Assembly: GCA_021785935.1 (NCBI GenBank)
Contig: JAJYOG010000005.1
Span: 1-64,000 of the forward strand
Source: Actinomycetes bacterium
Lineage (GTDB): Bacteria > Actinomycetota > Thermoleophilia > BMS3ABIN01
DNA length: 64,000 nucleotides
Direction of reading: 5' to 3'
In this document: positions 13,743-38,611 of the stretch, piece after piece
Layout: each line of letters begins with the position of its first letter
Position numbering within the stretch: the first letter of the stretch is position 1
The notes under the pieces: model-generated
Databases searched by the model: none
Told to the model about the DNA's origin: nothing
Seen by the model: the letters and a program-made list of their open reading frames with translations, nothing else
Made by a program: the position numbers and the translations under genes

Positions 13743-14384
13743 TTATTCTCCCGCCTCTGCCGGTTCTGCGGCCCCTACAGCCTCTGCTGGTTCTACGGCC
13801 TCTGCTGGTTCTACGGCCTCTGCTGGTTCTACGGCCTCTGCTGGTTCTACGGCCTCTGCTGGTTTTGTAGCCTCTACAGGTTCGACTCCTACATTGGTAT
13901 TGTTCTGATTACCCTGGTTGGGGATATCCACATTCAGCACAGCCCTGGATGCATCTTCGGCGTAAGTACCCGGCAGATCGACGCCTGCGAATGCGAGCCC
14001 CGCTGTGATCAGCATCAGACCTACTAATACGGCGGCTAGCTTTAAACTCCTGAATACTATTCTCTTTTTCATTTTGCCACTCCTCTGTTTCGGTAGCCCG
14101 GATACCTGCAGTACAGGCCCGATGGCTTTGCTTGCCGGCCTCACGACCAGGTCGCCTTTCTCGATCAGGCTACTGGATGTTTCAATAATCGCAGCAAGGT
14201 GGCTCTCCTCTGTCTCGTTGGAAGGGGGCTCCGTTAAAGCCGTCCGAGCTTCCATGAGGAAAGAAGCGAGGTCCTCGTACTGGCAGTCTCCGGCAGGCGC
14301 CTTGCCTTCGATAATTCGGTCGAGGTCGCTATCGCTGTGATTAAGGAAACGTCCCATGTAGTCATAAGCGTCAAAATCGCTCAT
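13743..14384 (-). CDS. Membrane protein, likely anti-sigma partner, with EAVEPA repeats
   Basis: A 213-residue protein overlapping the sigma gene by four bases (ATGA), the usual place of an anti-sigma factor. The N-terminal ~100 residues are cytoplasmic and acidic; no zinc-binding HxxxCxxC signature is visible. A basic stretch (KMKKRIVFRS) precedes one membrane span (LKLAAVLVGLMLITAGLAFAGV, about 114-135). The outer part is short and ends in repeats of the hexapeptide EAVEPA encoded by an 18-bp DNA repeat at 13781-13870. The anti-sigma role is inferred from position and topology only. Confidence 0.65.
   Translation of the reverse strand: MSDFDAYDYMGRFLNHSDSDLDRIIEGKAPAGDCQYEDLASFLMEARTALTEPPSNETEESHLAAIIETSSSLIEKGDLVVRPASKAIGPVLQVSGLPKQRSGKMKKRIVFRSLKLAAVLVGLMLITAGLAFAGVDLPGTYAEDASRAVLNVDIPNQGNQNNTNVGVEPVEATKPAEAVEPAEAVEPAEAVEPAEAVEPAEAVGAAEPAEAGE
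13781..13870. repeat. 18-bp tandem repeat within the coding tail
   Basis: Four perfect copies of cctctgctggttctacgg (13781-13852) and one diverged copy to 13870. On the minus strand each encodes six residues (EAVEPA register). Perfect identity at third codon positions indicates recent slippage or expansion. Confidence 0.9.
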
Positions 14385-33376: not shown

Positions 33377-33720
33377 GAATTTCTCCCCGCTTCTGCTGGA
33401 AACGGCCGCCTGTTGCGGCCTGTCTACGCCGGATTTGCGGCCTAATTGGCGCCTGGTTGCCGCCCAACCCGGCGATTTTCTATATCAATGGTGCCAAGTT
33501 CGAGATTTTAGAGGTTTTTTGGAGGGAATGCAATATAAGGCGGGCAACCTGGTACTGGTTTTGATATCAAGCGGCCCCTTATTTCCTCAATTTTAACTTC
33601 ATTGCTGTCAAAGTTGCTCTCAAAATATGGAGCCTCCAGGAAACTCAGTGTTGTTCATTGGAGTTGGAGTTGAGTTTGCTGGCAGGATTCGTCTAGAGAG
33701 GTACTGCCAGCGATATAAGG
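33377..33720. other. 344-bp region upstream of rplS
   Basis: No gene recognised. GC-rich next to rplS (probable leader) and AT-rich beyond about 33480, marking by eye the edge of the inserted segment. Confidence 0.5.
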
Positions 33721-34167
33721 TTAATAGCGACCGTCAGGCTCTCTGCTTTTTATCTTTCTGTAAAACGAGCGCCAAGAGCGCCGTTTAACGATTACATATA
33801 GTGGAAAAACTGTTATATCAATAAAAGCAGAAAGGGTCAAAGAACCGGAAAATAGGTTCAGATATCCCAAACCAAAGAGCGCGAACCAGATATAGTCACC
33901 GGCCTCCCAGGATACCGTCATGGCGGAAACCAAGCTAAAAATGATTGTCCAAATCATGATTTCATCACTTAATGTTGTTTCCTTCCGGTGCAAAGGATTT
34001 GTTGCCGCCCAAATATAGATCGCCAAGATAAGGAGAACAGAGAGAGTGCCAATGGCCAGCGTTGATTTCCTCAGCTTCAACGAGTCCATGTCATCAATGT
34101 CTCGACTCGGGATAGCCGGGTACTTGGTCATGGCCGTTTTGCTGGCCCCACCAATCGCCAAAATCAA
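33721..34167 (-). CDS. Hypothetical membrane protein
   Basis: Up to 148 residues from a TTG at 34167; internal ATGs (34131 or 34089) are equally possible because no ribosome-binding site decides. Three or four hydrophobic segments (LAIGTLSVLLILAIYIWAA, IMIWTIIFSLVSAMTV, YIWFALFGLGYLNLF, AFIDITVFPLYVIV) and a basic C-terminus (KRRSWRSFYRKIK). No family recognised. It is an orphan inside the segment separating rplS from trmD. Confidence 0.5.
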   Translation of the reverse strand: MILAIGGASKTAMTKYPAIPSRDIDDMDSLKLRKSTLAIGTLSVLLILAIYIWAATNPLHRKETTLSDEIMIWTIIFSLVSAMTVSWEAGDYIWFALFGLGYLNLFSGSLTLSAFIDITVFPLYVIVKRRSWRSFYRKIKSREPDGRY

Positions 34168-34386
34168 AAATGCCTGTAAGGAGGAAATCTGAAAGAGATT
34201 GTTTCCAAGGCGTCCATTCCATTAGCTTTATCACTTACATGTTTGTCTTCACCCCCTTCGCCGGGCTTCACAATGTCGGCATCTTTGAGCCGATCTGGCT
34301 TGCACAAGTTTCTCCTGTGCCACTGGCAATCACTGATTAGCTGAGGTCAGATAAGAATTTCTAACAATTCGTAGAAAAGAATATAA

Positions 34387-34414
34387 TTGACAAAATGACT
34401 CGATAATATAAAAT
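34387..34414 (+). promoter_or_regulatory. Promoter of the dynamin/antiporter operon
   Basis: TTGACA (34387-34392) and TAAAAT (34409-34414) with a 16-base spacer, giving a leader of about 115 bases before the ATG at 34536. Confidence 0.6.
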
Positions 34415-34419
34415 GTTAC

Positions 34420-34535
34420 TAGCCCTATTCACTGGGCTATATTGTAAAAACAACATAATGGTGATGAAGCTCACCGAATGCTCTCTTTTGAGCTAATGGC
34501 TTCTGCAGCAGATCTGCAGGAGCTTTTTTTGTGAA
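34420..34535 (+). promoter_or_regulatory. Structured 5' leader with possible attenuator
   Basis: Three successive hairpins: tagccc/gggcta (34420-34439), agctca/tgagct (34468-34494), and a terminator-like stem ending in seven T (34499-34530). The agct at 34491-34494 could pair with either the second or third structure, so alternative folds are possible. No known riboswitch pattern recognised. Confidence 0.45.
34499..34530 (+). terminator. Terminator-like hairpin just before the dynamin gene
   Basis: Stem gcttctgcag/ctgcaggagc (one G-U type pair) with a 5-base loop followed by ttttttt. It ends five bases before the ATG. Its 3' arm contains aggag, the only ribosome-binding-site-like sequence near that start. 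Confidence 0.65.
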
Positions 34536-36326
34536 ATGCTGGAGAATTATTCAAAAATCAGAGAATCGCTGCTGGAATTGCCCGCGAAAGTTGCCTCGGC
34601 AACCGAGAGTGAGGAATCGCGCCGGGCACTTTCGGCCATCGCCAAGAGGCTGGCAGAAAATGAGTTCTGCCTGGTTGTGGCAGGCCAGTTTAAGCGCGGC
34701 AAAAGCACCTTCATAAATGCCTTCCTGGGAGACGATCTGCTGCCCACGGCGATCATCCCTGTCACTTCAATAATCACTGAGATCCGGTACGGTGAGTCCC
34801 TTCGAATTAACGTAATCTTCAATGATGGCTCAGAAAAAGAAATTTCTGGAGAAGATCTGGTTTACTACGTCACCGAAAAAAATAACCCCAAGAATGCGAA
34901 GGATGTGAAAATCGTGGTAATTTTCCATCCTTCCTCTTATCTGAAGAACAACATCCGCCTCATTGACACCCCCGGGGTTGCATCGATTCACAGTCACAAC
35001 ACGGACGTGACATACAGTTACCTGCCCAACGCCGATGCAGCGATTTTTTTGGTCAGTGTTGACCCGCCGATTACAGACGCCGAGTACCACTTTCTGAACG
35101 ATCTGAAGGGATTTGCCACCAAGCTTTTCTTCATTCAGAACAAGATCGATACAGTCAGCGCTGCCGACCGGAATGAGTCACTTGAGTTTACCCGTGAGGT
35201 AATAAACAAGCAGGCCGGGCTTGAGAATACAATCGTATATCCGCTCTCAGCCAAGAAAGCGCTGGAGGGAAAACTTGGCCAAAACCGCGGCCTATTTGAG
35301 GAAAGTGGACTTGCGGATTTTGAATCCATGTTGGAAAGCTTTCTTATCGAAGAAAAAGGGCAGGTGCTCCTCGCCTCGGCTGCAAACAAAATACGAAACA
35401 TTGTCGCTCAGGAGTCTTTTTCGGCAAGGCTTATGCAAAAGTCACTTGGCGAGCCGCTAAAGGACTTTGAAGAAAAGATTAAACACTTCACTGACGCCGA
35501 AGTCGATATCTCTCAGGAGCGCCGGGATAGCCATCACCTTGTTCGCGCCGAAACCGGCAGTATGGCGAGTGAAATCCTGATCCCTGATCTTGAGGCACTG
35601 AAAGCGGAAAAATCGGCTGCCCTGGTCAAAGCGATCGGTCAGTATTACGAGTCAATCCGTCCGATCGGTAACAGGGAACTTGTAAAAAAGATGAATCATT
35701 TCGTCCATGAGCAGATACACGATACCTTTGATGAGTTTCAATCCCATGAAGAAGGTATTCTGAGAAGTCGCCTTGAGACTATCCTCGAACGGCTGATAGC
35801 CAGGACTAATCAGATGATAAAAAATATCATCAATCTGTCTGTTGACATCTTCGAGATCGATCTGCAACCGTTCGCAATAGAAGAATCTCTGGCCAAAGAA
35901 TCAGGATTTCGGTTCAAAATCGATGAAGACGTCAAGGTTTCGCTTGAGTTCATCACGGAGTCGGCAACGCTTATGCTCCCCAAACCGCTGGCACACAAGA
36001 TCATCCTCAAAAACGCTCGTGAACGGATGCGAGAAATGGTTGAAAGACATTGCGGGCGTCTACGCCAGGATTTCATGGTACGGATTGATAAGACCGTCTC
36101 TGATTTTGAAAAGCAGCTTGACGGGATAGTCGAGGCAAGCCTGGCAGGAATCCGCGGTGCCCTTAACGCGGCTCAAAACGCGAAGAAAGAGGGAGAACAC
36201 GGAGTTTCAAAGAACGAAGCCGGTCTAAACAATCGTCTTGATATATTCGAAAGCGTAGTCCGTGAGCTGGACAGCCTGGAGGAGGGAAATATGCTGAGCC
36301 AGCAAATGGGGGCAAGTCATGAGTGA
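34536..36326 (+). CDS. Bacterial dynamin-like GTPase
   Basis: A 596-residue large GTPase of the bacterial dynamin-like family. G1 is AGQFKRGKSTFINAFLG (about 49-65), G2 a threonine in IPVTSIITE, G3 IDTPG (about 144-148), and G4 QNKID. The rest is mostly helical with long charged, coiled-coil-like stretches and a hydrophobic patch near residue 470 (ESATLMLPKPLAHKIIL) that could touch membrane. Such proteins remodel or repair membranes, some in stress or phage defence. It overlaps the antiporter gene by eight bases, so they form an operon. Single copy, not the tandem pair seen in some dynamin operons. Confidence 0.82.
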   Translation: MLENYSKIRESLLELPAKVASATESEESRRALSAIAKRLAENEFCLVVAGQFKRGKSTFINAFLGDDLLPTAIIPVTSIITEIRYGESLRINVIFNDGSEKEISGEDLVYYVTEKNNPKNAKDVKIVVIFHPSSYLKNNIRLIDTPGVASIHSHNTDVTYSYLPNADAAIFLVSVDPPITDAEYHFLNDLKGFATKLFFIQNKIDTVSAADRNESLEFTREVINKQAGLENTIVYPLSAKKALEGKLGQNRGLFEESGLADFESMLESFLIEEKGQVLLASAANKIRNIVAQESFSARLMQKSLGEPLKDFEEKIKHFTDAEVDISQERRDSHHLVRAETGSMASEILIPDLEALKAEKSAALVKAIGQYYESIRPIGNRELVKKMNHFVHEQIHDTFDEFQSHEEGILRSRLETILERLIARTNQMIKNIINLSVDIFEIDLQPFAIEESLAKESGFRFKIDEDVKVSLEFITESATLMLPKPLAHKIILKNARERMREMVERHCGRLRQDFMVRIDKTVSDFEKQLDGIVEASLAGIRGALNAAQNAKKEGEHGVSKNEAGLNNRLDIFESVVRELDSLEEGNMLSQQMGASHE

Positions 36327-37551
36327 TCCTTTCACTATCGCGGCCGTCTGGTTCGCGTTGGCAGTCTTAGCCACTATCATTGCCAATAAACTGCGTGTCT
36401 CGGTGGCACTCATAGAGATTTGCGTTGGTGTCGCAGCAGGTGCGGTGGCTCTGCGTTTCTTTGGCTCGGACTGGCTTGGAGCAAATACAGATTGGCTTAA
36501 ATTCCTAGCCTCATCGGGAGCCGTAGTACTGACCTTCCTGGCGGGCGCCGAGCTTGAGCCTGCTGTCCTTAAGACAAAGTGGAAGGAAGTAAGCGTCGTG
36601 GGGCTCATAGGCTTTTTTGCGCCGTTCTTGGCATGCACCGCTTTGGCAAAATATGGATTAGGCTGGGATTCAAAGGCTAGCTTGCTCGCAGGCGTCGCCC
36701 TCTCGACCACTTCTATGGCAGTTGTTTATGCGGTGATGCTGGATACAGGGCTAAACAAGATCAGCTTCGGGAAGGGAATCCTTGGTGCCTGCTTTGTGAA
36801 CGATTTGGGCACGGTAATCGCGCTCGGGCTCATCTTCGCGCCTTTCACGTACAAGACAGCTGTTTTTATCGGCGTAACCGTTCTAGTTCTGGCTGCACTT
36901 CCTTTTGTAACGAAATGGTTGACAAAAAAATATGCATACGGTACAGCGGCCATCCGCACCAAATGGCTGCTTTTAATCCTTTTTGGTTTGGGAGCGCTTG
37001 CCACTTGGTCCGGCAGTGAGGCGGTGCTTCCTGCCTACATCGCTGGCATGGCACTTGCTGGCGCAGCAGCCGAGGACCATAACTGGATGCGGCGGGTGCG
37101 CACATTGACCGTGGGGCTGCTCACGCCCTTTTATTTCCTGCGCGCTGGTTCGCTGGTTACTATCCCTGCAATCATAGGCGCGCCTTTTGTCTTTGTGGCG
37201 CTTCTGGGAGGCAAGGTAGCATCAAAAATCTTTGGCCTATACCCCGTGATTGGCCGTTATAACAAACACCGGAAGGAAAGATGGTATTACACGCTGATGA
37301 TGTCAACGGGTCTCACTTTTGGCACGATTTCCGCACTTTACGGATACAGTCACAACATCATCAACCAGGACCAGTATTCATTCCTGGTCGCAGTTGTCAT
37401 AGCTAGCGCTGTTGTGCCCACGTTAATTGCAACGGCTATATTCTTGCCAAAGCATCTATTTGAACACATTCCGATGCTTGACGAGGAAGATGAATTCAAC
37501 GGGGGTAATAAGAATGGAAATGTAAGTCAGAGTTCGGAGAGAGGCGGGTAG
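36319..37551 (+). CDS. Cation:proton antiporter (CPA superfamily)
   Basis: A 410-residue membrane transporter with about 11-12 spans. The core helix has GKGILGACFVNDLGTVIALGLIFAPF: an ND pair in place of the DD of electrogenic CPA2 exchangers. In this superfamily ND generally goes with electroneutral exchange. SALYGYSHNIINQDQYSFLVAVVIASAVVPTLIATAIFLP is typical of the final helices. The tail is acidic and polar (LDEEDEFNGGNKNGN). Coupled to the dynamin-like gene, suggesting a shared membrane/ion-stress function. Transported ion (Na+ or K+) not determined. Confidence 0.82.
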   Translation: MSDPFTIAAVWFALAVLATIIANKLRVSVALIEICVGVAAGAVALRFFGSDWLGANTDWLKFLASSGAVVLTFLAGAELEPAVLKTKWKEVSVVGLIGFFAPFLACTALAKYGLGWDSKASLLAGVALSTTSMAVVYAVMLDTGLNKISFGKGILGACFVNDLGTVIALGLIFAPFTYKTAVFIGVTVLVLAALPFVTKWLTKKYAYGTAAIRTKWLLLILFGLGALATWSGSEAVLPAYIAGMALAGAAAEDHNWMRRVRTLTVGLLTPFYFLRAGSLVTIPAIIGAPFVFVALLGGKVASKIFGLYPVIGRYNKHRKERWYYTLMMSTGLTFGTISALYGYSHNIINQDQYSFLVAVVIASAVVPTLIATAIFLPKHLFEHIPMLDEEDEFNGGNKNGNVSQSSERGG

Positions 37552-37565
37552 GCGTTGGCGGATAA

Positions 37566-37694
37566 TTGATCTACCTTGAAAGAACAAGGCCGATTATATT
37601 ATCCCAGCGGATAGCGATTTTCACTTTTGCGGTCATGGTGGGTTTATCCGTATTTATAGGTTATATCTTAAGCAACTGCGTTCTACAGAATTAA
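37566..37694 (+). CDS. Possible 42-residue membrane peptide
   Basis: TTG at 37566 to TAA at 37694, 14 bases after the antiporter stop. It contains one strongly hydrophobic segment (IAIFTFAVMVGLSVFIGYIL) after a basic N-terminus (ERTRPIILSQR). The ribosome-binding site (ggcgg) is weak, so it is tentative. Confidence 0.35.
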   Translation: MIYLERTRPIILSQRIAIFTFAVMVGLSVFIGYILSNCVLQN

Positions 37695-37855
37695 GATAAT
37701 GTTTTTGCCGCCCCGCACCACGACACTTGCAATTATGTTTTATGAACACCTGCATAATCCTGGCAGTAAGGTAGGTTAACAAAAGACCCGTAATCATAAA
37801 AGGACTGTCGCGACGATAGCCTTAAACACAGGAACATTAAAAGCAAAATGAAATG
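37695..37855. other. Intergenic spacer
   Basis: AT-rich; no terminator or gene clearly seen between the plus-strand operon and the converging tauE-like gene. Confidence 0.4.
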
Positions 37856-38611
37856 TTAAAAAACTGTTAATATTCCAAGGCTTATTGTCGCTATCAATGC
37901 CAAAGGAATCCATTTACGGTTTTGATCTTCATTCATTAAAAGGTTCCCTAACCGCGCGCCCAGATATGCCATCGGAATAATTCCTATCCCCATGGAAATC
38001 ATTACCGGGCCATTCACATGCCCGAGGGCGAATTGGATGATCGTTCCCGGCAGGGCCATCACCGCCACCACCAACAGTGATGTGGCTATCGCCTTCTTGA
38101 CGGGCAGTCCGTAGATGACCACGAATGCTGGCACGAAGAAAATGCCGCCGCCATTAGCAAGCAGGCCCGAAAGAATACTGATAAACGCCGAGACCGTCAG
38201 CACCTGCCACACCGGTGGCCGGGGTTCAACCTTGCGGCCGGCGAACGACCTCTCGGTCAGATCCTTGACGATAAAATCCACCCCCACCAAAAAAAGAACC
38301 ACGGCAGTCAGCAGCATGAGAAATTTGCCGGAGACATATTTTGTCAGCAGTGAGCCAACGACCATTCCCGGCAAGCCGGTTGCGAGGCTCAGCAGGGCCA
38401 GCCGGAAATCGACAAGATGATGCTTGCGGAAAGCGAAGAGGGCGATGTTCGCGGTCAGCCTTGTCAGAGGCAGCGGCGTGGCCAACGCTTCGAGAGGCGG
38501 CAATCCTGCCAAGACCCTGATCAATGGCGTGTCGATGCTGCTGCCGCCGATGCCAAAGAAAGCCGACACGTAGCCGGTAACGCAACCGATGGGGATGGCG
38601 ATCAAGCTCAT
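37856..38611 (-). CDS. TauE/SafE-family membrane exporter
   Basis: A 251-residue membrane protein with seven to eight spans in two pseudo-repeats. The first is GCVTGYVSAFFGIGGSSIDTPLI, the second GLLANGGGIFFVPAFVVIYGLPVKKAIATSLLVVA. These GIGGG-like loops are the TauE/SafE signature. Members export sulfite, sulfoacetate or related anions. The start is nine bases after the trmD stop, so it has joined the trmD transcript. A sulfur-anion role would fit an organism with Dsr proteins, but that is inference. Confidence 0.85.
   Translation of the reverse strand: MSLIAIPIGCVTGYVSAFFGIGGSSIDTPLIRVLAGLPPLEALATPLPLTRLTANIALFAFRKHHLVDFRLALLSLATGLPGMVVGSLLTKYVSGKFLMLLTAVVLFLVGVDFIVKDLTERSFAGRKVEPRPPVWQVLTVSAFISILSGLLANGGGIFFVPAFVVIYGLPVKKAIATSLLVVAVMALPGTIIQFALGHVNGPVMISMGIGIIPMAYLGARLGNLLMNEDQNRKWIPLALIATISLGILTVF

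Follow-up and report, generated by a model that had tools for sequence, protein, structure and literature searches.

The window, i.e., the whole stretch of 64,000 nucleotides that was analysed, carries a two-gene operon composed of a dynamin-like GTPase gene and a cation/proton antiporter gene, preceded by a promoter and a structured leader RNA. The features of the locus are as follows:

33537-37955, no strand: approximate operon-carrying stretch, from blastn breakpoints against the same-genus genome G002
34387-34414, plus strand: promoter, TTGACA-16 nt-TAAAAT, 11/12 consensus matches
34420-34439, plus strand: hairpin TAGCCC...GGGCTA at the 5′ end of the leader, from the computed fold
34451-34512, plus strand: fluoride riboswitch aptamer (RF01734, crcB motif), Rfam 34.3 bits, E 1e-5
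34460-34463/34472-34475, plus strand: first stem of the aptamer, from pairing and covariation
34466-34470/34499-34503, plus strand: pseudoknot of the aptamer, GAAGC/GCTTC, joining the first-stem loop with the 3′ tail
34480-34483/34490-34493, plus strand: second stem of the aptamer
34498-34530, plus strand: intrinsic terminator, 11-bp stem and T run, stem pairs within 34498-34524
34536-36326, plus strand: dynamin-like GTPase gene, 596 aa, from ORF call and Pfam
36319-37551, plus strand: CPA2-type cation/proton antiporter gene, 410 aa, from ORF call and Pfam

The ORF calls and the Pfam matches agree on an overlap of 8 bases between the dynamin gene and a CPA-superfamily antiporter gene, as the first-pass annotation had stated, and the near-consensus promoter it had marked is the top scorer among 7 in 5.2 kb. 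The 42-residue membrane peptide that it had placed next (37566-37694, 42 codons from a TTG start) was rejected, as homology to the same-genus locus ends at 37503 and in that locus the antiporter is followed by enolase. The operon is flanked by housekeeping genes (comM, rnhB, lepB, rplS, trmD, rimM, ffh). Between rplS and tauE-trmD, blastn finds about 4.4 kb with the operon here and 115 bp in G002; therefore, the position of the operon varies within the genus. Elsewhere in the window, a c-di-GMP-I riboswitch match (14089-14166, minus strand; 40.7 bits against a threshold of 35) sits within a 213-aa ORF (13743-14384), on the downstream side of a sigma-factor-like gene, and is probably a chance match or one caused by overlapping coding sequence.

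The leader is strongly structured, as had been proposed, with a folding energy of -39.5 kcal/mol (z = -4.2 against shuffles). Its 5′ hairpin is not conserved in the same-genus relatives, to which the DNA homology starts at 34460. The RF01734 score in the window is only just over the gathering threshold (34.3 vs 34 bits). The same motif precedes the dynamin gene in all close relatives scanned, at 38-54 bits and above the threshold, and it occupies the homologous leader position in the same-genus genomes at 45-46 bits. Pairing reaches 99.6% for the first stem and the pseudoknot taken together across 25 loci, with double compensation in 20 cells, and the pseudoknot helix alone is 100% paired, with compensatory changes present. 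None of the 500 shuffles matched the observed paired cells, double changes or covariation.

The terminator had been recognized earlier together with an aggag in its 3′ arm, and both features hold: 11 pairs are formed within 34498-34524, followed by the T run, and the Shine-Dalgarno-like AGGAG lies at 34518-34522. The 3′ strand of the pseudoknot belongs to the 5′ arm of this terminator, so that the expression platform overlaps the 3′ end of the aptamer, and such an overlap is repeated in the six relatives folded. Because one strand serves both structures, fluoride should permit read-through. The layout is the same as that of the crcB motif in its on-switch arrangement (PMC2864571), and by analogy with the known family the direction of the switch would be fluoride-on. 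By its aptamer match and its pairing, the leader is a fluoride riboswitch and not a generic attenuator. The earlier description of an attenuator-like leader thus stands in broad terms for the conditional expression and gives way to RF01734 for the type of element. The putative control of the operon by fluoride is strongly supported.

The generality of this arrangement was assessed in 397 genomes of the phylum, on which the dynamin profile and RF01734 were each run. The dynamin loci of at least 250 bits number 30 and are spread over ten families; 28 of them have a same-strand fluoride riboswitch 14-113 bases before the matched start, the 29th has a sub-threshold aptamer (25.7 bits), and the 30th (G179) is cut by a contig end. 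No fluoride riboswitch precedes any of the 57 weaker dynamin matches in the same 397 genomes, a count taken from the comparison of the dynamin and riboswitch lists, with 18 of the 57 computed. With the loci treated as unrelated, the riboswitch frequencies at strong and weak matches differ at a Fisher p of about 1e-20. Seen from the side of the riboswitch, 90 genomes have at least one of the fluoride type, and in 28 of these a copy stands in front of this dynamin. The fluoride-linked proteins also stand together in a tree of 63 dynamins, where a 28-member clade is purely fluoride-linked (support 90/93). A wider group of 37 members adds three dynamins without a shown riboswitch: G179, which ends at the contig edge, an IMG/VR contig, which is truncated where the gene begins, and G114, where no riboswitch was found near the dynamin and the nearest match (18.9 bits) is located about 7 kb off.

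CrcB is a fluoride channel, and enolase is a classic fluoride target. In the same-genus genomes G002 and G003, a riboswitch-crcB-DUF190 unit is followed by a riboswitch-dynamin-antiporter unit, and in G002 enolase comes after the antiporter. Neighbouring crcB and DUF190 genes are found at the dynamin loci of G002, G003, G012, G013, G016 and others. On a different contig of the genome to which the window belongs, a further fluoride riboswitch precedes crcB-DUF190; these two genes were named by similarity to the Pfam-identified proteins of the relatives. Enolase and pyrophosphatase, both targets of fluoride inhibition, are commonly under fluoride riboswitches (PMC11139923). The partner of the dynamin varies by locus and may be crcB, the antiporter, an MFS transporter, enolase or none.

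Several of these neighbourhoods have peculiarities of their own. Family f25 carries an MFS transporter gene instead of the antiporter, overlapping or directly after the dynamin (L156:9769-11016, plus strand; L152:6699-7964, minus strand). A dense fluoride island in L141 (G151:C39:1-20000) holds five fluoride riboswitches in about 14.4 kb on both strands, with a sixth about 0.6 kb beyond its end and one more on G151:C43. A crcB operon in L070 (12388-13101, minus strand) encodes one DUF190 chain with two DUF190 stretches and a weak similarity to P-II signal proteins, which suggests that DUF190 may be a P-II-like regulator of fluoride genes. In G100, a DUF190 protein of 389 aa, in which three DUF190 stretches are matched (L172:3-1172, plus strand), is encoded some 1.3 kb away from a partial dynamin gene, and the listed fluoride riboswitches of this genome are on a different contig from that gene.

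The antiporter gives a full-length match to Pfam Na_H_Exchanger (residues 13-373, 122 bits, E 3.6e-35). The ND type proposed for it is borne out by the motif ACFVND (N161-D162), in which the aspartate is invariant; its ion specificity is putative. Sodium/proton antiporters are the second commonest gene class behind fluoride riboswitches (PMC11139923), and relatives of the present protein at 99 bits or more are mostly found directly behind such riboswitches, even without a dynamin (G021, G026, G036, G045). The adjacency to the dynamin, for which a search across genomes had been proposed earlier as a check, is conserved, though not constant. It is found in G000, G002, G003, G012, G017, G137, in G052, G105 and G186, where the two genes are adjacent but divergent, and in G008, where the antiporter is interrupted. 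In that last genome, a TAG stop breaks the antiporter gene (L073:7901-8922, minus strand), which looks decayed, and the dynamin is intact. Among the neighbourhoods of the surveyed dynamin loci, the antiporter is absent next to many other fluoride-linked dynamins, and an obligate dynamin-antiporter machine was rejected for this reason. The G012 proteins are 81% (antiporter) and 52% (dynamin) identical to those of the window, and such mismatched identities imply that the two genes were exchanged independently. The antiporter is thus a frequent, replaceable partner of the fluoride-linked dynamin, and the association of the dynamin with the fluoride riboswitch is stronger and more general than its adjacency to the antiporter.

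The dynamin-like protein matches Pfam Dynamin_N (101 bits, E 7.8e-29), and the alignment shows intact G1, G3 and G4 GTPase motifs (GQFKRGKST, DTPG, NKID). Its profile matches are BDLP1 2J68 (132 bits), IniA 6J72 (100 bits) and C. jejuni DLP1/2 5OWV (97 bits). The AlphaFold model (three sequences) predicts helices with low confidence (mean pLDDT 49.5). Bacterial dynamin-like proteins are characterised by a helical neck/trunk with a membrane-binding tip and by GTP-dependent assembly on membranes. The membrane role of the protein would follow from its family resemblance. The tandem pair is described as usual for bacterial dynamins (PMC6104087); in the survey, a second dynamin gene adjoins many non-fluoride dynamins, whereas the fluoride-linked ones are single.

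Outside the phylum, the alphaproteobacterium Lichenicola cladoniae has a plasmid on which a dynamin gene stands divergent to a fluoride riboswitch (59.7 bits) that is accompanied by crcB and universal stress proteins; this dynamin has a long branch and falls outside the 37-member group. The same plasmid encodes a CrcB-universal stress protein domain fusion behind a strong fluoride riboswitch (L164:4545-5774, minus strand). The dynamins on cyanobacterial and Bacillus-group plasmids stand in contexts other than fluoride. A viral origin was rejected: the phage records contain no relative covering more than 80% of the length and one partial record at 25% identity, and IMG/VR contains only one partial contig with a divergent C-terminus.

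The locus is probably a fluoride-response operon; its dynamin would protect or reshape the membrane, and its antiporter would bring pH and ions back into balance. At low intracellular fluoride, RNA polymerase would halt at the terminator (34498-34530). Magnesium-bound fluoride would stabilize the pseudoknot and remove the 5′ arm of the terminator, leading to read-through into both genes, and the release of AGGAG from the 3′ arm could aid translation. As HF acidifies cells (PMC11139923), the antiporter would offset the acid load and the ion imbalance that HF causes. The dynamin most likely would bind and remodel or seal the cytoplasmic membrane, the barrier to HF entry, and so limit the damage. 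The identity of the riboswitch, its overlap with the terminator and the conserved co-localisation with fluoride genes can be read from the sequence itself. It is also quite possible, and is proposed here tentatively, that fluoride-induced dynamins form an unrecognised arm of bacterial fluoride resistance, in which GTP-driven membrane remodelling limits HF entry or repairs the fluoride-damaged membrane. Such proteins may be switched directly by GDP-metal-fluoride complexes, would be widespread in one phylum and would have spread to proteobacterial plasmids.

Two other explanations keep the fluoride control and assign the dynamin a different role. Complexes of GDP with MgF or AlF mimic the transition state of P-loop GTPases, and the GTPase cycle of the dynamin could itself be affected by fluoride, either as an over-produced target, as enolase would be, or as a direct sensor of the fluoride complex, with GDP-MgF3 formation triggering its assembly on the membrane. 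The fluoride-inhibited enzymes commonly placed under these riboswitches (PMC11139923), with enolase in the G002 operon, offer a precedent for the target form; however, the linked dynamins form a distinct group and are not the ordinary paired dynamins expected if a housekeeping one were topped up, and we consider this explanation rather unlikely. A membrane scaffold that clusters or stabilizes exporters such as CrcB and the antiporter would account for the 8-base overlap, for the antiporter adjacency in G002, G003, G012 and G017 (divergent in G052, G105 and G186) and for crcB adjoining the dynamin at other loci. The varying partner, together with the independent exchange seen in G012, speaks against it, and this role appears distinctly improbable.

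A general membrane-stress or phage-defence unit behind an ordinary attenuator, close to what the first-pass annotation had suggested, has very little chance of being correct. In other bacterial species, dynamins have roles in membrane stress and in resistance to phages, and PADLOC returns LeoA (56 bits) and LeoBC (39 bits), both as distant matches. These points are opposed by the fluoride riboswitch in the leader, by the fluoride genes around the relatives, by the neighbourhood, in which no defence genes lie close by, and by the phage and IMG/VR records described above. Membrane stress is retained in broad terms from the earlier suggestion, whereas defence is not, and neither the housekeeping and fluoride neighbours nor the PADLOC scores of 39-56 bits support a defence-island context. 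The fluoride-response operon remains the preferred reading.

No paper joining "fluoride riboswitch" with "dynamin" was found in the literature search, outside which bioRxiv and the gene list of Baker et al. 2012 lie, so that a prior mention is possible. The match for crcB, dynamin and fluoride concerned connexin signalling in breast cancer cells, and that for dynamin with "fluoride resistance" concerned chloride homeostasis; the earlier remark that the pairing was not recognised as a described one holds in broad terms. The recurrent riboswitch-dynamin pair appears to connect fluoride resistance with the dynamins of bacteria, and no such connection was found in the literature searched. We know of no trigger for most bacterial dynamins, and a fluoride riboswitch before a whole group of them points to one exact inducer and to a physiological role that can be tested. 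The resistance programme, hitherto made of exporters, ion balance and enzyme replacement, would gain a protein that remodels membranes. Since dynamins are GTPases and metal fluorides mimic the GTPase transition state, the link is directly testable in vitro.

Compared with known systems, the dynamin shares Dynamin_N with all motifs, a long, putatively helical C-terminal region and a comparable length with BDLP1 2J68, IniA 6J72, C. jejuni DLP1/2 5OWV and LeoA. It differs in being a single gene behind a fluoride riboswitch, in contrast to the tandem pair at many non-fluoride loci, and the fluoride-linked dynamins form a tree group separate from other bacterial dynamin-like proteins. The antiporter has the full-length Na_H_Exchanger domain in common with the CPA2 / KefB-NapA antiporters, with a profile match to NapA 4BWZ, but ND replaces the DD motif, the C-terminal Kef regulatory domain is missing, the TIGR00932 subfamily cut-off is not reached (109 vs 238 bits), and the clade to which the protein belongs is located behind fluoride riboswitches. 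With the known regulons of the fluoride riboswitch (RF01734), the locus shares the aptamer fold, the pseudoknot and the overlapping terminator, and crcB, DUF190, antiporter and enolase genes are likewise nearby in the relatives; it differs from them in that the first controlled gene is a dynamin-like GTPase.
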